The translations under genes were made by a program, and so were the position numbers. The notes beneath the pieces are model-generated. The model was not told where the DNA came from. It made no database searches and saw only the letters and a program-made list of their open reading frames with translations. Below, one piece after another: positions 5,148-18,414 of a DNA stretch of 19,455 nucleotides; position 1 is the stretch's first letter; each line of letters opens with the position of its first letter. Source of the DNA: Candidatus Eiseniibacteriota bacterium (GTDB lineage Bacteria > Arandabacterota > Arandabacteria > JAGLYR01); NCBI GenBank assembly GCA_023132135.1, contig JAGLYR010000238.1, positions 1 to 19,455 on the forward strand, read 5' to 3'.

Positions 5148-8100
5148 TCAATCAGCCTTCGGCTCCATGTCTTCCAGTTCTCCGACGACGAGCTCAACGG
5201 GGATGATCCCTCCGCTGGCTGCCTTGCTCGATGCACAAACCCCTTCGAATTCGTAGTAGATCCAGTAGTCATTGTTGGAAGGGTTGAAGTCGTAGGTTAC
5301 AAACACAATATCCTTGTAGCAGGCTGGCCACGCCACGTTGTTCGTGCCCACCAGAATCTTCCGGTACCCTGCCGAATTCGAATACGGCCAGTTGAAGGTT
5401 GGGGAGTACTTCCGGCATGATGTGCTCGGGTTCTCGATGTGGAACTCACGGCCGTCGATCTCGACCAGGATTTCCGCACAGGTGTTCTCAGCATCCGCCC
5501 TGAACTTCATCCTTAGTTTCGTGCATCCTGCTGGGATGTAAACTCCGCCATGACCATTCTGCTTCAGATACCAACCCCGCTCCCACGTGGCATCTCCGTT
5601 AACTCGCCAACCCTTTTCGCAGTGATTCCAGCTGGGATCCTCATATGACACCCCGGATTTCATAAGAGTCATCTCACTCGCCGACCAACGGTTTGATTCA
5701 AAATAGACACCAGAAGCAGTCGGCTTGAGCATGATGTAGGCCGTCTCCGCCCCCTCGCCGCTGCAGCTGACATCATCGCATGCTGCTCCAGTGCTGATGG
5801 TGCAGTTGCTGCGGCCCGGACTCGTCGGACGATAGCGCACCGCGACTGTCCGCCGCTGTCCGGGATTCAGAGTGTAAGAACCACTCCCAGAGACGATGCT
5901 GAAACGCGTGCAGTTCTCGGACACCTGTCCCGAGATGGGGCAGGGGCTTGAGCTTGGACAATGGATTGTGAACTCCAGATCTTGTGAGTTCCCTACGCAA
6001 ACATCTCCGAAGTCCAAGGTCCTGGGGCTCACCGAGCACCTTCCCTCAACACCGACACCTCTACAGGAGACATCCGAGCATCCGGTCCCGGTGCTGATCG
6101 TGCAGTTCTTGGTACCGGAGGAGCCGGGGCTGAATCGCACGGTGACCTTTCGACTGTCCCCCGGATTGAGGGTGTATGATCCCCCGCCGGAAACGATCGT
6201 GTAGCGAGAGCAATTCTCAGAAACTCTACCCGAAATTGGGCAGGGACTTGAGCTGCCACAGCTAATCCTGAAAGTCTTGTCCTTATAGTCTCCGACGCAA
6301 ACGTCTCCGAAGTTCAGGGTCCTGGGGCTCACTCCACACGATCCTTCGACTCCGTCACCCTTCATGATGACATTTGAACAGCCTGATCCGGTATTGATGG
6401 TGCAGGTCCAGTTTCTGACCGAAGCAGGCTGGAACCGCACGGTGACAGTGAGAGCCTGGCCCGGGTTGAGTGTGAAAGAACCACTGCCTGAGACGATACT
6501 GTAGCTCGAGCAATCCCCGGAGAGGGTCCCAGAGATCGGACAGGGGCTATCGCTGTGGCAGCTGATCGTGAACCTCTTGTCTTTTGAACCACCGACGCAT
6601 ACGTCCCCGAAGTCGATTGCCGTGGGACGCACTTGGCACATTCCTCTGACCCCAACACCAGTACAGGATACGTCCGAACATCCAGACCCGGTGCTGATGG
6701 TGCAAGTCTTGGGTCCAGAGGAAGTCGGCTCAAACCGCACAGTGACTGTTCGGCTTGCTCCCGGATTCAGCGTATACGAGCCGCCCCCGGAGATAAGGCG
6801 ATAGCGCGACGAACTTGAGGACACAGTTCCGGAGATTGAACGGGGGTTCGTCGGGGGACAGGTGATCGTGAAAGTCTTGTCCTTTGAGCTACCGACACAG
6901 ATATCTCCGAAATCCAGGTTCGTTGGATTCACCACACACGAGACACAGTTGCTGTCCCCAACACCTGTACAGGACACATTGGAGCACGCAGATCCCGTGC
7001 TAATGGTGCAGGTCTTGGTTCCGGAAGAGGTGGGGCTGAACCGCACTTTGACCGTGCGCCTTTGCCCAGGGCTGAGAGTGTACGAACCGCCGCCCGAGAT
7101 GATCCTGTAATGTGCGCAGCTCTCAGAAACACTTCCCGAGATCGTACATGCGCTCGAGCTCGGGCATCTGATCTCAAAAGTCCGGTCCTCAGAAGCACCG
7201 ACACAGACATCTCCGAAGTCGAGAGTCGTAGGACTCACCTGGCACGTTCCTTCGATGCCAACACCAGTGCAGGATACGTTCGAACAATCCGACCCAGTGT
7301 CGATCACACCGGCCTTCGTTCCGGAGGAGGTGGGGCTGAATTGCACTGTGACTGTTCGGCTCTCTCCGGGACTCAGGGTGTAGGAGCCCGTGCCGGAGAC
7401 GATCTGGTAGTGCGAACTGTTTTCAGAGACCGTTCCCGATACGGAACTGGGACTGGATGGCGGGCAAGTGATCGTGAAGGTCTTACTCCTCGACTCCCCG
7501 ACACAGAGCTCCCCAAAATCGAGACTGCTCGGCTCTACCTCGCAAGCACGGCACTCAGCCCCGCTTCCCGTGCACGAAACATTCGAACAACCGGACCCGG
7601 TGTTGATGGTGCAGGTCTTGGTTCCGGAAGAGGTGGGGCTGAACCGCACTTTGACCGTGCGCCTTTGCCCAGGGCTGAGAGTGTACGAACCGCCGCCCGA
7701 GATGATCCTGTAATGTGCGCAGCTCTCAGAAACACTTCCCGAGATCGCACATGCGCTCGAGCTCGGGCATCTGATCTCAAAAGTCCGGTCCTCAGAAGCA
7801 CCGACACAGACATCTCCGAAGTCGAGAGTCGTAGGACTCACCTGGCACGTTCCTTCGATGCCAACACCAGTACAGGAAACGATTTGGCAGTCAGAGCCGG
7901 TGTGGACCTTGCACCCTTTCACGCCCGCAGACGTAGGTTGAAAGCGCACAGTGAACGTCTTAGACTGCCCTGCTGACAAACTGAAGCTAGCGTTGCCCAC
8001 CAACCCGTAGTCGTTACAGTTTTCGCTGACCGTCCCGACCAGCTGCCCCTGGCCGATGTTGGCAATCGTGAAGGCCTTGTCTTTCGAGTTCCCAACACAT

Positions 8101-8534
8101 ACCTCCCCGAAATTCAAGGTTGCAGGACTCACTCTGCACTCCGGTCCGGCGTGCGCCGCGATTACGGCTACTGACTTGCTTCCACCGTTGGATGTGACGC
8201 TGATCGTCCCAGTGTTTCGACCATTACTCAGCCGAGAACGGTTAATCCTGACCACAAGGTGGTCCTTCTCCCCTGAACTCGTTCCACCAGAATGGGAAAG
8301 CGTAATCCAATCTCTGTCGGCGGCCAGGTTGTACCGCAGGTTTGCCGGACTGGATCCCAAAACTCGGGAATCCTTTCCTGCATTCCACACGGTCAGCCGC
8401 GTCTCCGAGGCTGTGCTACCGAAGTCCAGGACTGAGGGAGCTACTTCAAGTTCGGGATCGCCACCGCAGCCGACGATGAAGCTGATAGCAAGCAGAGCGG
8501 CGATGACACTTGCAACAATCCGATTACGCCCCAT
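5148..8534 (-). CDS. Large lipoprotein: BACON domain, eight Cys-rich choice-of-anchor-D (ASH-like) repeats, C-terminal sandwich domain
   Basis: This is a 1128-residue protein. ATG 8534 is chosen because AAGGAGGG lies at 8539-8546 and a lipoprotein signal follows at once (MGRNRIVASVIAALLAISFI, VGC; lipidation at Cys23). The frame stays open upstream to 8741 without signal features. Residues 26-128 resemble a BACON domain (WITLSHSGGTSSGEKDHLVV, then GTISVTSNGGS). Residues 129-930 hold eight units of about 100 residues with the pattern CxVxPxxLDFGDVCVGxSxDxTF, then GSYTLxPGxxRTVxVRFxP, then CTIxTGxxCSxVSCTGxG. These match the choice-of-anchor D/ASH (HYDIN-like) Ig fold, enriched in cysteines that probably form disulfides. 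Residues 931-1128 are a further beta-rich, Cys-containing domain of unknown family (WYLKQNGHGGVYIPAG). A surface structural or adhesive role is inferred. Units 2 and 4 are almost identical in DNA (see the repeat entries). It has no TTW tail. Confidence 0.85.
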   Translation of the reverse strand: MGRNRIVASVIAALLAISFIVGCGGDPELEVAPSVLDFGSTASETRLTVWNAGKDSRVLGSSPANLRYNLAADRDWITLSHSGGTSSGEKDHLVVRINRSRLSNGRNTGTISVTSNGGSKSVAVIAAHAGPECRVSPATLNFGEVCVGNSKDKAFTIANIGQGQLVGTVSENCNDYGLVGNASFSLSAGQSKTFTVRFQPTSAGVKGCKVHTGSDCQIVSCTGVGIEGTCQVSPTTLDFGDVCVGASEDRTFEIRCPSSSACAISGSVSESCAHYRIISGGGSYTLSPGQRRTVKVRFSPTSSGTKTCTINTGSGCSNVSCTGSGAECRACEVEPSSLDFGELCVGESRSKTFTITCPPSSPSSVSGTVSENSSHYQIVSGTGSYTLSPGESRTVTVQFSPTSSGTKAGVIDTGSDCSNVSCTGVGIEGTCQVSPTTLDFGDVCVGASEDRTFEIRCPSSSACTISGSVSESCAHYRIISGGGSYTLSPGQRRTVKVRFSPTSSGTKTCTISTGSACSNVSCTGVGDSNCVSCVVNPTNLDFGDICVGSSKDKTFTITCPPTNPRSISGTVSSSSSRYRLISGGGSYTLNPGASRTVTVRFEPTSSGPKTCTISTGSGCSDVSCTGVGVRGMCQVRPTAIDFGDVCVGGSKDKRFTISCHSDSPCPISGTLSGDCSSYSIVSGSGSFTLNPGQALTVTVRFQPASVRNWTCTINTGSGCSNVIMKGDGVEGSCGVSPRTLNFGDVCVGDYKDKTFRISCGSSSPCPISGRVSENCSRYTIVSGGGSYTLNPGDSRKVTVRFSPGSSGTKNCTISTGTGCSDVSCRGVGVEGRCSVSPRTLDFGDVCVGNSQDLEFTIHCPSSSPCPISGQVSENCTRFSIVSGSGSYTLNPGQRRTVAVRYRPTSPGRSNCTISTGAACDDVSCSGEGAETAYIMLKPTASGVYFESNRWSASEMTLMKSGVSYEDPSWNHCEKGWRVNGDATWERGWYLKQNGHGGVYIPAGCTKLRMKFRADAENTCAEILVEIDGREFHIENPSTSCRKYSPTFNWPYSNSAGYRKILVGTNNVAWPACYKDIVFVTYDFNPSNNDYWIYYEFEGVCASSKAASGGIIPVELVVGELEDMEPKAD
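7003..7268 (-). repeat. 266-bp near-identical direct repeat, copy A (ASH unit 4)
   Basis: This block matches 7606-7871 at an offset of 603 bp (201 codons, two ASH units). The only difference I find is T at 7145 versus C at 7748, giving Thr versus Ala. The other units of the gene are far more diverged, including at silent sites, so this copy arose by recent duplication or gene conversion. Confidence 0.88.
7606..7871 (-). repeat. 266-bp near-identical direct repeat, copy B (ASH unit 2)
   Basis: This is the partner of 7003-7268 with a single mismatch. The intervening unit 3 (about 7270-7600) is distinct, so the identity skips one unit. Confidence 0.88.
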
Positions 8535-8993
8535 GATACCCTCCTTGTGATGGTGAAATCCTCGAAGTCTACGCGGCCGATTCGCTCCCGAGTTCGAGCG
8601 CCGACGCGACAGTTGCCGTGCCCACGGTTTTCTGAGTGCCATCATGTCCTCCCGGCGATCTGACCAAGTGATGTCCACTGCGCTCGGTTGTGACAGGCGA
8701 ATCAAGTCTTTGCACCTCCACTTACTCCGTCGCCGGTACATCTCAACTGTGACGCGGATGAATCAGAACTTTCTGCGCAGTGGAATTTCCGTTGGGATTC
8801 GAGTCGAAGACTGGGATTGCGGCCAGCCGGTGGACTCAAGACGTGGTAGGACAAACCAGGACCTACAGTGTCCTCGACCGACATACATGAAGGGGGCGGC
8901 ATTTGCCGCCCCCTTCATACCCCCTCGAACGCTGGGACCTGTCTTCACACACCTAGCATCTCTCTTTTTTCAGAGCGCCAGTCGATCGTCGTG
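8535..8993. other. Intergenic region between lipoprotein start and small secreted gene
   Basis: I see no credible gene. The minus-strand frame 8535-8741 is an upstream extension of the lipoprotein frame without its own signal, and its start is poorly supported. The region contains the perfect hairpin at 8887-8918. It must hold either the lipoprotein promoter or a read-through leader from the small gene upstream on the same strand. Confidence 0.5.
8887..8918. terminator. Perfect 14-bp hairpin, probable terminator or REP-like palindrome
   Basis: ATGAAGGGGGCGGC (8887-8900) and GCCGCCCCCTTCAT (8905-8918) form a perfect 14-bp stem with an ATTT loop. It lies 76 nt after the stop of the small minus-strand gene (8994). 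No U-tract follows on either strand, so it is not a classical intrinsic terminator. Its core GGCGGCATTTGCC recurs as a reverse complement in the hairpin near 18451, so a shared palindromic repeat family is an alternative. Confidence 0.5.
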
Positions 8994-9925: not shown

Positions 9926-10486
9926 ATGTCTGAACCTGCCGCTTTCGGCGAGACTGAAATCGACTGGGATGAGGCCACCCTCTTCCTGAAACGCCGCCTG
10001 ACTCGCAAACTCGGACGGGTGGACGAACTCACACTGGAGGATCTCACCCAGGAAACCTGTGTCCGGCTGCTACGGGCAGTCCGCAGAGAAGGTGCCACAA
10101 ATCCCCACGCTCTGATGACCACGATCGCGGACCGGACAGCGGTCTCACACATCCGTCGCATCACACGGGAAAGGCCCATCTTCGAGCCTCTGACAGAGGT
10201 CACCGAGAACCTGCCCGATCCGAAATCCGAGACCACGCAAGTACCCGGCGATATCCAGGAGCGTGTGGAGCTTGTTGTTCAGGAAATCTTCCGTTCCCGA
10301 AGATCATCGTGTCTGGAGTTGGCTGTGGCTTTTTTTGAGAAGCGGAACTGGTCCGCGGTTGCCAGCGCGCTGGGCATTTCGCACGACGCGGTCCGTGCCC
10401 GTTGGTCCCGCTGTGTGGCACTCCTGCGGAAAGTCGTTGCCGCGGATCCGGAGTTCCGTCTTCTGGCGGACTGGGTTACCGAATAA
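9926..10486 (+). CDS. ECF-family RNA polymerase sigma factor
   Basis: This is a 186-residue protein of normal ECF length. Residues 35-80 correspond to region sigma-2 (LTLEDLTQETCVRLLRAV, then NPHALMTTIADRTAVSHIRR), which binds core polymerase and the -10 element. Residues 127-170 correspond to sigma-4, with a helix-turn-helix (NWSAVASALGISHDAVRARW) for -35 recognition. The linker carries the usual acidic/proline stretch (ENLPDPKSE). The start is uncertain: ATG 9926 has only a weak ribosome site, and GTG 9917 (CGAGG at 9909-9913, very close) is an alternative adding three residues. The frame upstream to 9707 does not look like protein. The next gene begins 15 nt after the stop and encodes its likely anti-sigma factor. 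The ECF subgroup and regulon are not determinable from sequence alone. Confidence 0.85.
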   Translation: MSEPAAFGETEIDWDEATLFLKRRLTRKLGRVDELTLEDLTQETCVRLLRAVRREGATNPHALMTTIADRTAVSHIRRITRERPIFEPLTEVTENLPDPKSETTQVPGDIQERVELVVQEIFRSRRSSCLELAVAFFEKRNWSAVASALGISHDAVRARWSRCVALLRKVVAADPEFRLLADWVTE

Positions 10487-10501
10487 CGGCGGAGAACATG
10501 T

Positions 10502-11440
10502 ATGACTTCGCAGAATGAGCATTCCTGGTTCCGAAAGCGGTTCGTTGCTTTCAGATCTGGTCTTCTGGAAGAGGTAGAAGAGGAGCGTTTCCAGACCCAT
10601 CTTTCCGAATGCGATGAGTGCCGCAAGGCCTGGGACGCATACTTGGAAGGGGAAGTCCCGGGGGAAACCGGGGCTAGACACATTCCAAGTGCCATGGTGG
10701 CGCGTTGGGACAGGGCCAGTGGGACGCTTCGGGGCCTGGAGCGGGCCATGGTCCGCCAACACCTCGAACACTGCGGCCAGTGCAGGCAGGACCTCGAGGT
10801 ACTCGGTTTCGACCCCGTCCTGCCGTTTGTACCCGAACTGGAGCTTCAATCTCAGATGCTGGACGCTGCCCGCGAGGAGACCCCTCCCAAGGCGGAGGAG
10901 TCGGCGATCACCCGGGAGCTGGAACCACCGGGAGGACACGTGATAAGGATCGTCCGGCAGGAGAGACCTGGAGGCCTCGCTGCCTGGTGGAACTGGGCAT
11001 TTGCGGGATGGGCAGTCGCGGCGACGGCGGCGGCTCTTCTGCTATTCGTTGGCCGCGATATCTCGAGACAGCCCCCACCCCCGTTCGATATGACGGCTCT
11101 GCCCTTTGTTCAGACGGGCGTAGCACGAGGGGATGCGAGCACCAGCAAGCTCGAGGTGACGAGAGACACCCGAACGATTCTCCTCGGAGTCTCCGTACCA
11201 TACGGTACCCCGCCAGGCCCCGGTGCGGTGATCGACGTGTACTCGCCCGAGAAAACCCGTCTTGCTAGTGTGCAGGTGAGGAGCAATGAGTTGCGGCGAG
11301 CCGTTGTCATGGTGCCAGTATGTAGTCCTACCGGGTTCCAACCTGGGGTCTATCGAGTAGCATTCTTGAAAGGAGATCCGCCCACGTCTTCAGAGGCACC
11401 GAGGGATACCTTCTTCGAGGTCGCGTTGGCCGAACACTAG
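10502..11440 (+). CDS. Membrane anti-sigma factor with two zinc-finger (HxxxCxxC) motifs
   Basis: This is a 312-residue protein encoded 15 nt downstream of the ECF sigma factor. The cytoplasmic N-terminus has two anti-sigma zinc-type motifs: H33-x3-C37-x2-C40 (THLSECDEC) and H87-x3-C91-x2-C94 (QHLEHCGQC). Known ZAS/zf-HC2 anti-sigma factors usually have one, so this is a doubled or two-module version. A single membrane span at residues 163-184 (WNWAFAGWAVAATAAALLLF) puts about 125 residues outside the cytoplasmic membrane. That part is beta-rich (TSKLEVTRDTRTILLGVSV, then GVYRVAFLKGDPP) and may be the sensor or cleavage target. CGGAG lies about 8 nt before ATG 10502. It converges, with only 62 nt between, on two genes for exported CHAT-domain proteases. 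Confidence 0.82.
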   Translation: MTSQNEHSWFRKRFVAFRSGLLEEVEEERFQTHLSECDECRKAWDAYLEGEVPGETGARHIPSAMVARWDRASGTLRGLERAMVRQHLEHCGQCRQDLEVLGFDPVLPFVPELELQSQMLDAAREETPPKAEESAITRELEPPGGHVIRIVRQERPGGLAAWWNWAFAGWAVAATAAALLLFVGRDISRQPPPPFDMTALPFVQTGVARGDASTSKLEVTRDTRTILLGVSVPYGTPPGPGAVIDVYSPEKTRLASVQVRSNELRRAVVMVPVCSPTGFQPGVYRVAFLKGDPPTSSEAPRDTFFEVALAEH

Positions 11441-11502
11441 CACTCTGCATTTCCCTGACCAGTTATCTGCGGGCCTTTCAAGCCCTCTTGCTCCTTCGCA
11501 TG

Positions 11503-14500
11503 CTAGCCTCGATCACCAATCAGAATGAACGCGGACCAGAAGTAGGGGTGCTCGAACGGCTGGCGGCCGTACTCATCTTCGTAGGTCCGCAGCCAGTGCT
11601 TGGCCTCCTGAAGAGCCTTGGCCTTGGACATGGGTTGACCTGCTCCTGCGCCCCGGTCATCCGCGTACTTTCCGGTGCGATTCTCATAGAAACGTCGCAT
11701 CAAGAGTGACGTCGCTTCGTCCTCCACAGGCCAGAGACTCACTAGCAGACTCCGCGCGCCAGCCTGCAGAAACGCATGCGCGAATCCAACGTAGCCTTCT
11801 CCCAGCACTTCTTTCCCAAGACCCGTCTCGCAGGCACTCAAGGTGACTAGATCAGCACTGAGATCCCATTCCCGCAGGATCTCCTTGGCCGTGAGGAGGC
11901 CGTCGTAGATTCGCGTGCCCGCCATTGCCGCCTCTAACGGGTCCGGGAGATCGACCTGGGACAGCACCAGCGCCGAACGTTCTGGCCACTCGTCGTCCAT
12001 CAAGGCATGCGTCGCCAGGTGGATCACCTCGTAGTCCTTGAGAGTCCCCGCCTCGGCCAGCCTGACCAGCTCCTGCTCAGAAGCGTCGGGACCTGCAAGG
12101 ACCGTCGCTTCTGAGTAAAACCCCGCGACGCTCGAGATCTCTTCTCGGGTCCTGGGTAGGTGAGGAAGAGACGCAAGCGCGGCGTCATTTCCTGCAAGTG
12201 CGGCTCGGAGTACAGGAGCGTCTCGAACAACTTCTGTGGAAGCGAGGACCACTTCCTCACGCTCCATCGCAGCAGCATGAGCTTCCGTGAAAGGCGGATC
12301 TCCTACGAGCAGAGCTAGTGCCTTTCCCTCAGTCTCACGGGCTTTCTCACTCAGCCATGTGTAGATCGTCGCCGAGGGGATGTAGGAAACCGCGTACCGG
12401 TCTCCTAGAAACACGCCCTGATCGTCCGCAAGAGTCTCAACCGGAAGCCCAAGCATTGCGCCAGAAGGAATGACGATCAGCTCCTCGACCCCCTCCAGAG
12501 TGTCTGATAGAGGCCTAATCCGCTCGCGCCATAGCTTCCCGGCATCCCTGACTTCAGCGAGGCCTAAAAAGCCGGGGGCGGCCAGTTGATATCGGAAGGC
12601 ACGAGCCTCGTCAAAGGAAGATCCATTGGTTGCCGCTTCGGAGGAAATGGCAAGGTGTGCCCAGCGCACGGGCCCCGAGCTCCGGACGACGTAGCCCCAG
12701 GAATCGTACTCGCCCTTCTTGGCCTCTACGTCGAGCCAGCCGACCAGGGCCACGTGTTGGGAGAGGGCAGACTGGATGCGATCGAGTGAGAACGCCTGAC
12801 CCTCGGTGACCGGGTACTTTGCCGCCATCTCTTGGTGAAAGGCGCTCCAGTCTGCCTCGGCAGCGAGGAGCTGATTGCGGGCATTGTCCGCACGATCTTG
12901 AGAGGCTGCTGTCGTGTCTTCCCGCGCAGCCTCGCTATACGCTCCAAGCTCACGCTCTCGGTTCCCCAAGGCCTCCTTCAGAGTGTCTTCCAGGGCTGCC
13001 TCCGACGGACTCAAATCCCGCGTGCCGGACGCCATCAAAAGGTCGGCAAGCGCCCGGGCCTGAGCTTTCTCGGCCGCGGGCCAAGCGTCGTCCAGCCTTC
13101 CAATGGCCAACCGCGCAGCCGCAAGTTCAGCATACAGAGTGTGCGCAAGAGTCGCACGCTTGAAGCCAGAACCTGCTCGAAGGCGCGCGCTTTCGAGGAC
13201 GCGGCCAGCCTCTGTAAGAAGTTGCTCGGCCCCAACGTAGTCGCCCTGTGCCCGAAGGAGTCTCGCTAGGTCCCTCAGGCTGGAGGCAACAACCGGGTGT
13301 TCGTGACCCAGAAGGTTCTTCCTGATAGCAAGTGCCTCTCGGGAGAATGGCTCCGCGCCAGCATACTCACCCCGTGCCCCGAGGAGGGAGGCAAGACTAT
13401 AGAGACTGATGGCAGTCGTGACATGCTCACTGCCCAAGAGCTTCCTCCTCATCGCCAGCGCTTCCTGGAAAAGCGGCTCCGCTCCAGCATAGTCCCCCTG
13501 AGCCAGCAGGAGACTGGCGACGTTGTGGAGGCTTGTGGCGATGTGAGGATCTTCATCTCCAAAGAGCTTTCGGAACATCGCCAATGCCTCGCGGTGCGAC
13601 GCCTCCGCTCCGGTGTAGTCCTCTTTGGCCTGTAGCAGGTGGCCAAGGTTGTTGAGGGTCACGGCGACATTGACGTGCTCATCGCCGAAGCGCTCTCTCC
13701 ATATCGCCAACGCCTCACGGAAAAGTGGCTCTGCGCCAGCATAGTCCCCCTGATCCATGTAGAGGAGGTAGGCGAGGTTGTTAAGGCTCTGAGCCACCAG
13801 GGGGTGCTCACCGCCCAGGAGTCTCCTCCTCATCGCTAGTGCTTCCCGGAAAAGTGGCTCTGTACACGCATAGTCGCCCTGACCTCGGAGGGCCATTCCG
13901 AGATGATTTAGGGTGGTGGCGACGTCGGGGTGCTCGTCGCCCAGAAGCTTCTTGGTCATCGCCAGCGCTTGTCGGTAGAGCGGTTCTGCGCCAGCATAGT
14001 CACCCTGAGCCCGCAGGAGACTTGCGAGGTTGTGGAGAGTATCAGCAACACGGACGTCGTCGCCAATGGACTTCCTCCACATCGCCAAAGCGTCGCGATA
14101 GAGCGCTTCTGCACCCGCGTAGTCGCGCTGGCGTTGGAGGCAGAGAGCAAGATTGTTGAGGCTTGTAGCCACATCAGGGTGCTCGTCGCCCAGGAGCTTC
14201 TTCTTTGCCACTATTGCCTCGCGGAAAGGCCGCTCCGCACCGGCGTAGTCGCGTTGGTCCATGAGAAGACAGGCCAGGTTGTTAAGGCTAATCGCGACAT
14301 CGGGATGTTCATCGCCGAGGAGCTTCTTCCACATAGCGAAAGCCTCGTGAAAAGGCCCCTCTGCACCAGCGTAGTCCCCCTGCGCCTGGAGAACCAGCCC
14401 AAGATCATTCAGGCTATTGGCGATGTCGGGGTGCTCATCGCCGAGCAGTCTCCGGCGGATCTCCAATTGCCGCCCCACTGCGTCAGCACCCTCGGCGTAT

Positions 14501-14871
14501 TGGCCCATTCTGTAGTATCTGTTAAAGACATCCGTCAGGCTATCGGCCAGAGCCAGCTCCTGCCTCGCTTGCTCCCGAAGATTCTCTACGTACTCGAGCG
14601 TGGACACCAGCCGCTCGGCATCTGCGATCTCCCATGCCTTCGCTTTGGTATCCTCCTTTCTCAGTAGGAGCAGTTTCTTCGCCACCTCGGCTGCCTCAGA
14701 GTATCTTGCTTGTTTCCTTAGCTCCCAGATCCGCTCTTGGAGCTCCTCAGCGGGATCTTGCTCCTGTGTGACGGCAGCACTTGCGAGTGCAAGGAGGGAG
14801 ACTGCCAACACAACGACTGCAGCAACCCGTGCTCTGAGAGTGGAATCAGGTCCCGTCATCAGTACCCTCAT
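11503..14871 (-). CDS. Exported TPR-CHAT caspase-like protease (second gene of pair)
   Basis: This is a 1122-residue protein. A signal peptide covers residues 1-32 (hydrophobic VAAVVVLAVSLLALASA). The start is taken as ATG 14871; ATG 14859 with GAGGG 5 nt upstream is an equally good start, giving 1118 residues. Ten kinesin-light-chain-like TPRs of 42 residues (LLGDEHPDVAxSLNNLAxLL, QGDYAGAEPLxREALAM) fill residues 136-556. A helical linker precedes a C-terminal CHAT domain (about 720-1122), a clan CD caspase-like peptidase fold. The dyad is intact: His955 in HLATHA and Cys1014 in SACETGLG. TPRs normally bind the substrate or activator. No substrate is shown. Being exported differs from cytoplasmic Csx29 of type III-E CRISPR. 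It follows its paralogue by 17 nt, as the second gene of an operon. Confidence 0.88.
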   Translation of the reverse strand: MRVLMTGPDSTLRARVAAVVVLAVSLLALASAAVTQEQDPAEELQERIWELRKQARYSEAAEVAKKLLLLRKEDTKAKAWEIADAERLVSTLEYVENLREQARQELALADSLTDVFNRYYRMGQYAEGADAVGRQLEIRRRLLGDEHPDIANSLNDLGLVLQAQGDYAGAEGPFHEAFAMWKKLLGDEHPDVAISLNNLACLLMDQRDYAGAERPFREAIVAKKKLLGDEHPDVATSLNNLALCLQRQRDYAGAEALYRDALAMWRKSIGDDVRVADTLHNLASLLRAQGDYAGAEPLYRQALAMTKKLLGDEHPDVATTLNHLGMALRGQGDYACTEPLFREALAMRRRLLGGEHPLVAQSLNNLAYLLYMDQGDYAGAEPLFREALAIWRERFGDEHVNVAVTLNNLGHLLQAKEDYTGAEASHREALAMFRKLFGDEDPHIATSLHNVASLLLAQGDYAGAEPLFQEALAMRRKLLGSEHVTTAISLYSLASLLGARGEYAGAEPFSREALAIRKNLLGHEHPVVASSLRDLARLLRAQGDYVGAEQLLTEAGRVLESARLRAGSGFKRATLAHTLYAELAAARLAIGRLDDAWPAAEKAQARALADLLMASGTRDLSPSEAALEDTLKEALGNRERELGAYSEAAREDTTAASQDRADNARNQLLAAEADWSAFHQEMAAKYPVTEGQAFSLDRIQSALSQHVALVGWLDVEAKKGEYDSWGYVVRSSGPVRWAHLAISSEAATNGSSFDEARAFRYQLAAPGFLGLAEVRDAGKLWRERIRPLSDTLEGVEELIVIPSGAMLGLPVETLADDQGVFLGDRYAVSYIPSATIYTWLSEKARETEGKALALLVGDPPFTEAHAAAMEREEVVLASTEVVRDAPVLRAALAGNDAALASLPHLPRTREEISSVAGFYSEATVLAGPDASEQELVRLAEAGTLKDYEVIHLATHALMDDEWPERSALVLSQVDLPDPLEAAMAGTRIYDGLLTAKEILREWDLSADLVTLSACETGLGKEVLGEGYVGFAHAFLQAGARSLLVSLWPVEDEATSLLMRRFYENRTGKYADDRGAGAGQPMSKAKALQEAKHWLRTYEDEYGRQPFEHPYFWSAFILIGDRG

Positions 14872-14888
14872 GTTTCTTTCCTCACAAC

Positions 14889-17800
14889 CTACCCTCGATC
14901 CCCAATCAGTATGAACGCGGACCAGAAGTAGGGGTGCTCGAATAGCCTGCGGCCGTACTCATCTTCGTAAGTCCGCAGCCAGTGCTTGGCTTCCTGAAGG
15001 GCCTTGGCCTTGGACATGGGATGCCCTGCTCCTGCGCCCCGGTCATCCGCGTACTTCCCTGTACGGTTCTCGTAGAAACGACGCATAAGGAGAGACGTTG
15101 CTTCATCCTCGACTGGCCAGAGACTCACTAGCAGGCTTCGTGCGCCAGACTGAAGAAACGCATGCGCGAAACCGATGTATCCCTCACCTAGAACTTCGCG
15201 TCCAAGACCCGTCTCGCAACCGCTGAGCGTCACCAGATCCGCATGCAGATCCCACTCTCTGACAATCTCTCTGGTTGTTACCAGACCATCATAGATCCGC
15301 GTTCCGGCCACCGCCGCTTCCAGTGGATCGGGAAGGTCAACTTGGGAAAGCACCAGTGCCGATTTCTCCGGACGCTGGTCGTCCACCAGCGCATGTGTCG
15401 CCAAGTGGATTGTCTCGAAATGAGCGAGCTCGCCCGACTCTGCAAGTCGGACAATTTCCTGCTCCGAGGCATCTGCACCGACGAGAACAGTCGATTGAGC
15501 CAAAACCGCGGCAATGCTCGAGATCTCCTCCCTCGTCCCAGGCAAGCGCGGAAGCGAAGCCAAGGCTTGGTCATTTCCGGCCAGAGCACTCCTGAGAACG
15601 CTGGCATCTGGCGGCATGGCGGACGCAACTACCACTCTCCCCTGTTCCATAGTAGTCAACTGTTCCTCCGAGAACGGAGGATCTCCAACCAGCAGCGACG
15701 GACCCGCTGTCCCTGAATGCGCCCCTTTCTCGGCAAGCCAAGTATGAATCGTCGCAGACGGAACGTAGGAAACTGTGTACCTGTCGCCAACAAACACACC
15801 TTCGTCGTCAATGAGGATCTCAATAGGGAAACCCAGCATCGCCCCAGAAGGAACGATAATCAGATCTCTGACTTGGTCAAGGGCCCCGATCAGAGGCCGC
15901 AACCGCTCTGTCCACAGATCCTTGGTCTCCTCGACCGCGCCGAATCCCAAAAAACTCCGGAGCGCAGCAACATCCCTGGTCGACCGGATTCTCGAGAAGG
16001 ATGAAGGTTGCTCATCGTCCGGAAATGAACGCGCAAGACGTACCCATTGCACAGACCCAGAATCCCTGACTACGTATCCCCAAGAAACACGCGGGCCTCC
16101 CCGGTGCTCAACGTCGAGCCAGCCGACAATCGCCGCCCGCTTGGTCAGGGCCCGTTGGACACGTTCCAAAGGATACGCTTGGCCTTCAGATACGGGGTAT
16201 TTCTTGGCCATTCGCTGTTGGAAGCTGCCCCAAGCCGCTTCTGCAGCAAGTAGTGATGAATGTGTTGATTCGACCCGCCAGGAAGATTCCTCGGTGCCGT
16301 CGTCGCCAGCTGCATCTCTGAAAGCAGAGAGCTGATCTTCTAGGTCGCTCAACTGTTCTCTCAGGTAATCCTCATGGGCCTGTTCTTCAGGGCTCAGCGC
16401 CCGATTCTCTGACGCTAGCATAAGATCTGCGAGCAATCTGGAGGACGCACGCTCGGCCGCCGACCAAGCCTCGTCGGCTAAACCACATTCAGCTCGTGCA
16501 ATCGCCAGGTCCGGATATGGAGTATGCAAGAACGTGGCCTTCTTTAGACCTGCACCAACTCTTAGACGGGCTGCGTCATAGACTCTCGCACCCTCGGCAA
16601 GCAATCGCTCAGCCCTGGCGCAGTCTGCCTGAGCTAGGAGCATACGACCTTGATTCCAGAGACCCTCAGCAACCAAAGGGTGCTGCTCGCCGAGGACATC
16701 TCTCCAAGTCTCAATCGCTACAACAAACAGCGACTCCGCAGTTCCGTAGGCGCGCTTGTCCCAATGTACTAAAGCAAGATTGTGCACGCCCAAGGCGACA
16801 TCTCGGTGCCTTTCACCCAAAAGCCTTCTTGAGATCCCTGTCGCTTCGCGATACAGGCTCTCGGCTTGGACGTAATCGCCCTGCCTGAGGCGGGTCCCGG
16901 CCAAGTTGTTCAGGCAAAGAGCGACATTCGGATGGTCTTGTCCCAGCAGTCTCCTCAGCATTGCAAGCGACTCACGATATAGTGCCTCCCCGCCGGTCCA
17001 ATTTCCCTGAGCGACCATAACTGCGGCAATATTGTTCAAGCTTGCAGCCACATCTGGGTGTTCGTTTCCAAAGAGTTCCCTTCGCATTTCCAGAGCTTCG
17101 CGGTACAAGAGCTCCGCATTGACTTTGTCACCCTGCTTCTCTAGAACACCTGCAAGATTGTTCAAAGCAGATGCTACGTAGGGGTGCGGTCCGTCAAAGT
17201 GCGCCTGGGTTATCGACAGCGCGCGTCGGTAGAGCGGTTCGGCGGCTGCAAACTCCCCCTGAGCATGCATGACCAGCGCGAGATTGTTGAGACTCATAGC
17301 AACCTCAGGATGTTCGTCCCCAAGCAGTTTTCTGCGCATTGCAAGTGCTTCACGTTGGAGATCTCGAGCCCCGTCGTAATCTCCTCGATCTGCGAGCAGA
17401 GAACCTAGGTTGCCTAAGGCAGTCGCAACAAGTGGATCTTCGCTGCCCAACATTTGTCTGTACAGGGACAGAGCATCCTTGAACATAGGCTCCGCCTCCG
17501 CATATGCTCCCTGAAGCTGAAGCAGAAAGGCAAGGTTATTGACCGTGCCGGCCACTTCCGGATGGAGGTGGCCGAGGACCTCTCTCCGCATTGCCAATGC
17601 CTGGCGGAAGAGTCCCTCTGCACCGGCGTAGTCGCCTTGAGCGTAGTGCACAGCTGCGAGATCATTCAGAGTGAGTGCAATTTCCGGATGTGGTTCACTC
17701 AGCAACTTGCGGCGAATTGACAGGTCCTGCTTAAGAGCAGCCTTAGCCTCAGCAAGTCTACTGCTCTCCCACAGCTCTACAAAGACCGCACTCAGGCTGT

Positions 17801-18101
17801 CGGCCACACGAAACTCAAATCTCTCTTGTAGCGAGAAGTTGGCAGCCTGCTCAATCGTTCTCAACTGCCACTCGGTATCCACAACTTTCCAGCTGTTGGT
17901 TGTCGTGTCTGCGCGAAGTAGATCAAGGAGTTGCCTAGCTTTTGCAGCAGCTCTCTCGTACTCACCTGCTCGGCGCAGAGTGGAGATGCTGTCCTCAAGC
18001 ACTGAAACCTGATCCTCTGTGTCTTGCGCGTCAGCGCAGACAGCCAGCGGAAACGCAACTGCGATGATTATCAACCCCAAGAATACTCGTCCGTAAACCA
18101 C
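14889..18101 (-). CDS. Exported TPR-CHAT caspase-like protease (first gene of pair)
   Basis: This is a 1070-residue paralogue of the downstream gene. The frame is open upstream to 18338. I choose GTG 18101 because GGAGGGAG (18104-18111) sits ideally before it and a signal peptide follows directly (VVYGRVFLGLIIIAVAFPLA, VCADA). Nine 42-residue TPRs (HPxVAxxLNNLA, QGDYAxAExLYREAL) span about residues 140-520. A linker and the CHAT domain follow. The dyad residues are His903 (HLATHA) and Cys962 (SGCETGLG), so peptidase activity is plausible. The last 103 residues differ from the paralogue at only six positions, while the TPR part is much more diverged. That suggests different TPR ligands but one shared catalytic end. 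It heads a two-gene minus-strand operon convergent with the sigma/anti-sigma pair. Confidence 0.86.
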   Translation of the reverse strand: MVYGRVFLGLIIIAVAFPLAVCADAQDTEDQVSVLEDSISTLRRAGEYERAAAKARQLLDLLRADTTTNSWKVVDTEWQLRTIEQAANFSLQERFEFRVADSLSAVFVELWESSRLAEAKAALKQDLSIRRKLLSEPHPEIALTLNDLAAVHYAQGDYAGAEGLFRQALAMRREVLGHLHPEVAGTVNNLAFLLQLQGAYAEAEPMFKDALSLYRQMLGSEDPLVATALGNLGSLLADRGDYDGARDLQREALAMRRKLLGDEHPEVAMSLNNLALVMHAQGEFAAAEPLYRRALSITQAHFDGPHPYVASALNNLAGVLEKQGDKVNAELLYREALEMRRELFGNEHPDVAASLNNIAAVMVAQGNWTGGEALYRESLAMLRRLLGQDHPNVALCLNNLAGTRLRQGDYVQAESLYREATGISRRLLGERHRDVALGVHNLALVHWDKRAYGTAESLFVVAIETWRDVLGEQHPLVAEGLWNQGRMLLAQADCARAERLLAEGARVYDAARLRVGAGLKKATFLHTPYPDLAIARAECGLADEAWSAAERASSRLLADLMLASENRALSPEEQAHEDYLREQLSDLEDQLSAFRDAAGDDGTEESSWRVESTHSSLLAAEAAWGSFQQRMAKKYPVSEGQAYPLERVQRALTKRAAIVGWLDVEHRGGPRVSWGYVVRDSGSVQWVRLARSFPDDEQPSSFSRIRSTRDVAALRSFLGFGAVEETKDLWTERLRPLIGALDQVRDLIIVPSGAMLGFPIEILIDDEGVFVGDRYTVSYVPSATIHTWLAEKGAHSGTAGPSLLVGDPPFSEEQLTTMEQGRVVVASAMPPDASVLRSALAGNDQALASLPRLPGTREEISSIAAVLAQSTVLVGADASEQEIVRLAESGELAHFETIHLATHALVDDQRPEKSALVLSQVDLPDPLEAAVAGTRIYDGLVTTREIVREWDLHADLVTLSGCETGLGREVLGEGYIGFAHAFLQSGARSLLVSLWPVEDEATSLLMRRFYENRTGKYADDRGAGAGHPMSKAKALQEAKHWLRTYEDEYGRRLFEHPYFWSAFILIGDRG

Positions 18102-18103
18102 GA

Positions 18104-18111
18104 CTCCCTCC
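18104..18111 (-). promoter_or_regulatory. Ribosome binding site deciding the GTG start of the first CHAT gene
   Basis: The minus strand reads GGAGGGAG immediately before GTCGTG. Its GGAGG core is 5 nt from the GTG at 18101. This, together with the signal peptide that begins there, argues against the upstream ATG at 18338. Confidence 0.6.
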
Positions 18112-18414
18112 AGCTGTTGTGCGGCCCGCGGCCACCATGGTAGCATCATCACGGCTGGTCCTATGAGACAGCCAGATTCTAGCCCCTTTCCCCAGCAGGG
18201 ACAATGGTTTTCCCTTGCAAGGAGCGTGCGCTCATCCAGAGCAATCTCCAGACTTGGCGAGGCGTCACAAACGTCCGTCCTGGTGTTTCGGGACAGAGCC
18301 CTAATAGGGATATCGCTATATTCCACAGGTGATTCCATTATCCAGATTTGTTGCTGAGTCCTTGATCTGTTTCAGGGATTCAGGTAGGTTTGTGAAGGGG
18401 TAGGTACAAAGGAG

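Follow-up and report, generated by a model that had tools for sequence, protein, structure and literature searches.

Gene content of the locus

The window analysed here, 19,455 nt long, is the whole of one contig (C155) of a Candidatus Eiseniibacteriota genome of 3.4 Mb in 345 contigs. It carries a gene for an extracytoplasmic function (ECF) sigma factor, a gene for a membrane anti-sigma factor and, converging on this pair, two genes for large TPR-CHAT proteins, designated A and B (Table 1). The sigma and anti-sigma genes are 15 nt apart, and 62 nt separate the stop codon of the anti-sigma gene from that of CHAT A. CHAT B and CHAT A lie in tandem on the minus strand with a 17-nt gap and, at 52% identity, probably form one operon. 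An earlier reading of the DNA without database searches (the sequence-only reading) had described this arrangement, including a one-span anti-sigma factor and intact His/Cys dyads in both CHAT proteins, and the open reading frames (ORFs), the Pfam scores and the dyad columns of the alignment confirm it.

The sigma factor scores 35.5 bits with PF04542 (sigma-70 region 2, cut-off 24), and its ATG start at position 9926 is consistent with the nearest homologue (L155). No Pfam match to region 4 was obtained in the window protein; TIGR02937 spans residues 28-169 at a score of 32.6 (cut-off 42.9), and L155 has a weak region-4 match. In the anti-sigma factor, PF13490 matches two stretches (46.2 bits, cut-off 22.2) with the motif HxxxCxxC at residues 33-40 and 87-94, followed by a single hydrophobic span (166-184) and by residues 185-312, predicted to lie outside. 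A zinc-finger domain, a gene adjacent to that of the sigma factor and one transmembrane span place it among the class I membrane anti-sigma factors (zf-HC2). L142 and L152, the latter a soluble homologue, both keep its outer domain, as seen from the alignment on both sides of the span; this domain is possibly a beta-sandwich or immunoglobulin-like fold, as judged by eye. Anti-sigma factors of this type, with twin zf-HC2 and a transmembrane span, are encoded separately in the window and in L036, L065, L072 and L110.

Both CHAT proteins contain many TPRs and match PF12770 far above the cut-off of 24 (220 bits for A, 205 bits for B). Their dyads are His955/Cys1014 in A and, counted along the 1149-aa ORF, His982/Cys1041 in B; the two columns are invariant in alignment A1, so that by domain and dyad the two belong to the CHAT family. 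The start of CHAT B is either 18155 or 18101, within an ORF open to 18338. Hydrophobic leaders were located at residues 16-34 of A and 85-103 of the B ORF; here and below, leaders and transmembrane spans were called from hydropathy and by eye, and assigned by hand rather than by a trained predictor. On this basis the window CHATs and the outer domain of the anti-sigma factor are predicted to lie on the same side of the membrane. The AlphaFold2 model of CHAT A (mean predicted local distance difference test score, pLDDT, 78) shows a TPR superhelix at residues 40-565. In the comparison of CHAT sequences the nearest named relatives were mostly metagenome-assembled genomes (MAGs) of Candidatus Eisenbacteria. 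The last ~990 nt of the A and B genes (11503-12483 and 14889-15866) share 73.6% DNA identity, clearly more than the remainder of the two genes, which reflects either conversion or a strong constraint acting at the CHAT-encoding end.

Table 1. Positions of the sigma, anti-sigma and CHAT features in the window
Feature	Position	Strand	Evidence
ECF sigma factor, 186 aa, window type (family A4)	9926..10486	+	PF04542 E 8.6e-9; 48% identical homologue
Membrane anti-sigma factor, 312 aa: twin zf-HC2, one transmembrane span, outer domain	10502..11440	+	PF13490 E 4.8e-12; homologues L142, L152
zf-HC2 motif 1 (H33, C37, C40)	10526..10624	+	
zf-HC2 motif 2 (H87, C91, C94); ligands lost in nearest homologues	10709..10786	+	
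Anti-sigma transmembrane span, residues 166-184	10997..11053	+	Hydropathy
Anti-sigma outer domain, residues 185-312; candidate docking/cleavage target	11054..11437	+	Conserved in L142, L152
TPR-CHAT A, 1122 aa, predicted exported, His955/Cys1014	11503..14871	-	PF12770 E 5.3e-65; hydrophobic leader; AlphaFold2
CHAT domain of A	11512..12546	-	
TPR-CHAT B, paralogue of A, predicted exported, dyad intact	14889..18155 (start uncertain)	-	PF12770 E 2.2e-60; 52% identical to A
CHAT domain of B	14898..15923	-	

Recurrence of the gene neighbourhood

Gene maps were drawn from hidden Markov models run over all ORFs, and the scan of genome contigs for CHAT used alignment A3, alignment A1 being too little conserved. 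Each of the four CHAT loci in the genome to which the window belongs (the window, C44, C210 and C103) has an ECF sigma factor and a zf-HC2 anti-sigma factor; C44 and C210 are sigma/anti-sigma/CHAT operons, and C103 has the order CHAT/thioredoxin-like/sigma/anti-sigma. With about 16 sigma-70 region-2 genes in 3.4 Mb, the chance of a sigma gene within 5 kb of a random locus is p ~0.06, and that of finding one at four loci out of four is p ~1.5e-5. Synteny of the C103 type extends over all eight class genomes, and this type was therefore counted once. Outside the class, 99 CHAT loci of many families were sampled, with 20 stretches taken from these genomes at a distance from CHAT as controls, and an ECF sigma gene was found within 5 kb at 34 of the CHAT loci and at none of the controls (Fisher p 8e-4). 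The order of the genes in these sets is variable, and includes convergent, divergent, operon and fused forms.

The sigma family of the window, defined by profile matches at E<=1e-12 in 386 genomes plus searches of small phyla, is rare, with five members: the window protein, G103:C136 (48% identical), G188:C50, G188:C75 and G347:C1. A TPR-CHAT gene lies within 6 kb of all five sigma genes, in four genomes; it is convergent in the window and in G188:C50, on the same strand in G103 and in G188:C75, and divergent in G347. The profile was built from the window, G103:C136 and G188:C50, all met through their CHAT neighbour, so the independent finds are G188:C75 and G347:C1 only, and G188:C75 had also been collected among the CHAT loci. 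A homologue of the window anti-sigma factor stands beside the sigma gene in four of the five cases (the window, both loci of G188, and G347, where it is cut by the contig end), and the contig of G103 ends too early to show one. A weak sixth match (G347:C158, E 7e-11) has no CHAT gene on its 6.6-kb contig.

The sequence-only reading had proposed a search of genomes for co-occurrence of these genes, and had made its case depend on a conserved neighbourhood; the neighbourhood recurs, both in the sample outside the class and around the window-type sigma genes. The sigma factor, the anti-sigma factor and CHAT belong together outside CRISPR, and their linkage is not due to chance. The suggestion of that reading that the logic of a CRISPR-associated protease may run here in the absence of CRISPR is strengthened by the survey, as far as the association of the three genes goes.

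Compartment match and gene fusion

The predicted location of the anti-sigma factor goes along with that of the CHAT protein. An anti-sigma transmembrane span together with a CHAT leader was found at 20 loci and neither of them at 11, while a span without a leader occurred twice (L072, L119) and the reverse never, a match with p 4e-7 when kinship is ignored. Within the sigma family of the window, G188:C75 combines an anti-sigma factor with a span and a CHAT protein with a leader, and in G188:C50 the anti-sigma factor aligns with those of C75 and the window on both flanks of the span, the span itself is missing, and the CHAT protein is leaderless.

Moreover, the two partners may be joined in one protein. 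In G001 (L035), an ORF of 1191 aa directly after the sigma gene comprises two zf-HC2 domains, a transmembrane span (residues 142-160), TPRs and CHAT. The same fused gene is found in G004 (L047:2957-3602), with one in-frame stop between the span and the TPRs, which may be a real split, a sequencing error or decay.

A proposed split sigma switch and its alternatives

The reading that we favour, and for which we find the balance of argument about level, is that the window encodes a split sigma switch similar to that of DdvA, the transmembrane anti-sigma factor of Myxococcus xanthus, in which a TPR-CHAT protein would act as the site-1 protease on the anti-sigma outer domain. From what is known of its family, the zinc-finger domain of the anti-sigma factor would keep the ECF sigma factor bound at the cytoplasmic face of the membrane, and both TPR-CHAT proteins, once exported, would act on the outer domain. 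The TPR superhelix may take up a signal or a client, upon which the CHAT cysteine protease would be activated and would cut the anti-sigma factor outside (site 1), and a general site-2 protease of the M50 family, of which the genome has two genes, would remove the stub, so that the sigma factor would be freed. Contact between CHAT and the anti-sigma factor in the same compartment we consider likely, and cleavage of the anti-sigma factor by CHAT has about even prospects; that the cut falls within residues 185-312, as the sequence-only reading had it, is a hypothesis. By analogy with DdvS, the regulon of the window switch could possibly be one of defence. The sequence-only reading had also considered a death circuit, and nothing in the analysis points to a death outcome.

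Given how widely the partnership recurs, the CHAT proteins are the probable trigger of sigma release. In favour of the split switch stand the sigma and anti-sigma genes at the four CHAT loci of the genome, the survey against its controls, the CHAT neighbours of the window-type sigma genes, the compartment match, the fusion in G001, the architecture of DdvA, the dyad retained in 61 of 63 sigma-linked CHATs, which bears on cleavage, and the presence of M50 proteases.

Several findings weigh against this reading. About two thirds of the sampled CHAT genes have no nearby sigma gene, which implies other jobs for the CHAT domain, and sigma linkage is scattered over the CHAT tree with 27 changes, at least 17 of them forced by supported branches, so that it must have arisen or disappeared repeatedly. 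The compartment states cluster on the same tree and amount to 2-4 independent switches, all concordant, with which number a tree-corrected test cannot reach significance. The dyad is likewise present in 94 of 98 unlinked CHATs, and is therefore not specific to a role in sigma control. Outer domains vary among loci, beta-like or TPR-like by eye, and no common cleavage site is evident since they differ; that of the window anti-sigma factor has a pLDDT under 50 in the AlphaFold2 model, which is not usable for this domain, and in L047 the split anti-sigma factor of G004 has hardly any outer domain.

It can also be the case that the exported TPR-CHAT protein docks on the outer domain and, once it senses its ligand, alters the anti-sigma factor with no cut being made, or that it cuts something else, such as itself or an outer client. 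This we regard as rather unlikely, yet as an explanation to be taken seriously: the same evidence of linkage, fusion and compartment fits it, the TPR-CHAT part is itself the ectodomain in the fusion and in DdvA and could thus be a plain sensor, and L047 offers little outer domain to cut. On the other hand, His and Cys are both retained in 61 of 63 sigma-linked CHATs, which would be needless for a pure docking module, and cleavage is the mechanism of the sole precedent studied biochemically, Csx29-Csx30-CASP-sigma (PMC10028731). Alternatively, the sigma factor would switch on the exported CHAT proteins as envelope or defence effectors, with no feedback on the anti-sigma factor, an explanation that we find improbable. 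ECF sigma factors often regulate neighbouring genes, which speaks for it, but it leaves unexplained the fusion of anti-sigma and TPR-CHAT, DdvA, and the paired absence of span and leader. Besides, no ECF-like promoter motif common to the sigma gene and CHAT B stood out from chance, with one shared gapped motif against 1.84 expected, and the single sigma-70-like box ahead of CHAT B is no more than chance would give.

The abundance of CHAT genes, two thirds of the sampled ones lacking a nearby sigma gene, would allow two exported CHAT genes to stand by chance beside a sigma/anti-sigma pair; the four loci of the same genome, the survey against its controls, the five window-type sigma genes and the fusion refute chance as a general account, and for the window it is very improbable. 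Membership in type III-E CRISPR (Craspase), or a remnant of it, has a negligible probability in spite of the presence of a TPR-CHAT protein, an ECF sigma factor and an anti-sigma factor. The window CHATs have leaders and are predicted outside the cytoplasm, the anti-sigma factor is a zf-HC2 protein, and no Cas gene was found among the nine main window ORFs scanned with Pfam, a CRISPR RNA array not having been searched separately. Such membership was rejected because CHAT A reached 16.9 bits with the Csx29 model, whose cut-off is 300, and B gave no match. The parallel with Csx29 drawn in the sequence-only reading is fair as regards mechanism and does not extend to membership.

Somewhat more tentatively than for the window switch itself, we suggest that CHAT-gated sigma release may form a widespread modular class, in which TPR-CHAT proteins would be dedicated site-1 proteases of ECF anti-sigma factors, split or fused, the pair would shift between cytoplasm and envelope by joint gain or loss of the span and the leader, and DdvA and Craspase would be special cases. 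For most TPR-CHAT proteins of bacteria no substrate is known, and should the outer domain be a substrate or a docking site, a large set of CHAT genes would be given a function that can be tested. The signal input of DdvA-like systems, an orphan so far, would in that case become approachable through the split version, with its two purifiable soluble partners, and Craspase would appear as a recruited member of an older scheme of sigma control. This significance derives from linkage and topology, not from biochemistry.

Other features of the window and of CHAT loci

Elsewhere in the window, positions 5148-8741 encode a long, probably exported protein with many ASH/HYDIN/Cep192-like immunoglobulin repeats, and a 96-aa ORF at 18713-19003 matches the last third of REase-ARP (PF22558) alone, as expected of a truncated restriction-type gene. 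The contig ends (1-24 and 19432-19455) show a perfect inverted identity of 24 bp (GGACTTCTAACACCGGCCGTGACA), probably an assembly-graph repeat. Rfam and tRNA scans of the window gave no match, and the PADLOC defence models gave a generic TPR match plus a weak BovA match and nothing more.

The eight class genomes share an operon of CHAT, a thioredoxin-like protein, an ECF sigma factor and a soluble zf-HC2 anti-sigma factor (L003, L037, L040, L046, L048, L050, L051, L052). A PEGA domain is shown for L003, and in several of these genomes an M50 protease gene adjoins the operon, with CBS domains in L037. One MAG (M3-44_Bin_119) has two sigma/anti-sigma/TPR-CHAT operons in tandem (L065:6178-16864). 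Two leaderless sigma-linked CHATs (L220:5887-9111, L228:6213-9092) have an N terminus that resembles class III adenylate cyclase (FTDI..STAFFE..GD) on inspection of the sequence. In L062:7799-15126, a gene for an exported TPR-CHAT protein is followed by one or two for exported proteins of ~305 aa (weak fn3) and then by a CHASE2-SpoIIE phosphatase gene, and a similar gene order is present in L060, L064, L071 and L073, Pfam having been run on L062 only. Since SpoIIE phosphatases act in partner-switching control of sigma factors, this neighbourhood may give CHAT a second way into sigma regulation.

Comparison with known systems

The closest precedent, missed in the sequence-only reading, is DdvA rather than Csx29. 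When the CHAT A model was searched with Foldseek, the TPR part dominated the result; DdvA was among the matches, and Csx29 was absent among the matches listed. The CHAT profile matches DdvA at 845-977 (E 3e-7). The match of the anti-sigma profile to the N-terminal part of DdvA is weak, with E 0.014 in the 8rlz construct and E 0.58 in the long chain, and is consistent with the name given by the depositors. With these two matches, the architecture of DdvA is that of the fused protein of L035. The DdvS/DdvA system (PDB 8rot, 8rw5, 8rlz) shares with the window an ECF sigma factor, a zinc-finger anti-sigma factor, a transmembrane span and TPR-CHAT; the window likewise has the sigma factor linked and, by hydropathy, TPR-CHAT predicted outside the membrane. 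DdvA, however, is one polypeptide, as is the L035 protein, whereas in the window an anti-sigma factor with an outer domain of its own and two separate TPR-CHAT proteins are encoded. The signal that inactivates DdvA was described as unknown (PMC4374960).

In Craspase (Csx29-Csx30-CASP-sigma) a TPR-CHAT protease also controls an ECF sigma factor by cutting its inhibitor (PMC10028731), but it is activated by RNA via Cas7-11, whereas the window CHATs are predicted exported, the inhibitor domain is another one and no Cas7-11 was seen among the nine main ORFs scanned; by sequence, Csx29 is matched only weakly (E 0.03-0.05). In DegS-RseA-sigmaE and RsiW/RsiV an outer cut of a one-span anti-sigma factor frees an ECF sigma factor (PMC8103513), the site-1 enzyme being a PDZ serine protease or signal peptidase and not TPR-CHAT. 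The EACC2-caspase neighbourhoods place, in silico, a caspase-fold protease beside an ECF sigma factor, with DUF1822 nearby (PMC8195603), the protease being of another family; the portion of that source covered here describes no zf-HC2 anti-sigma factor.

Linkage of CHAT to ECF sigma factors, likewise missed in the sequence-only reading, is already in print for the ECF54 group, which is reported to have CHAT, subtilase and carboxypeptidase genes nearby and to lack an anti-sigma factor, and for which proteolytic control has been proposed (PMC8999054); the window resembles this group in the CHAT neighbour of its ECF sigma factor and differs from it in having an anti-sigma factor. No paper was found that describes the separate and exported form paired with a membrane anti-sigma factor, the coverage of the literature being partial. 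The separate exported CHAT proteins, together with a membrane anti-sigma factor of their own, are a variant of the theme known from DdvA, Craspase and ECF54.

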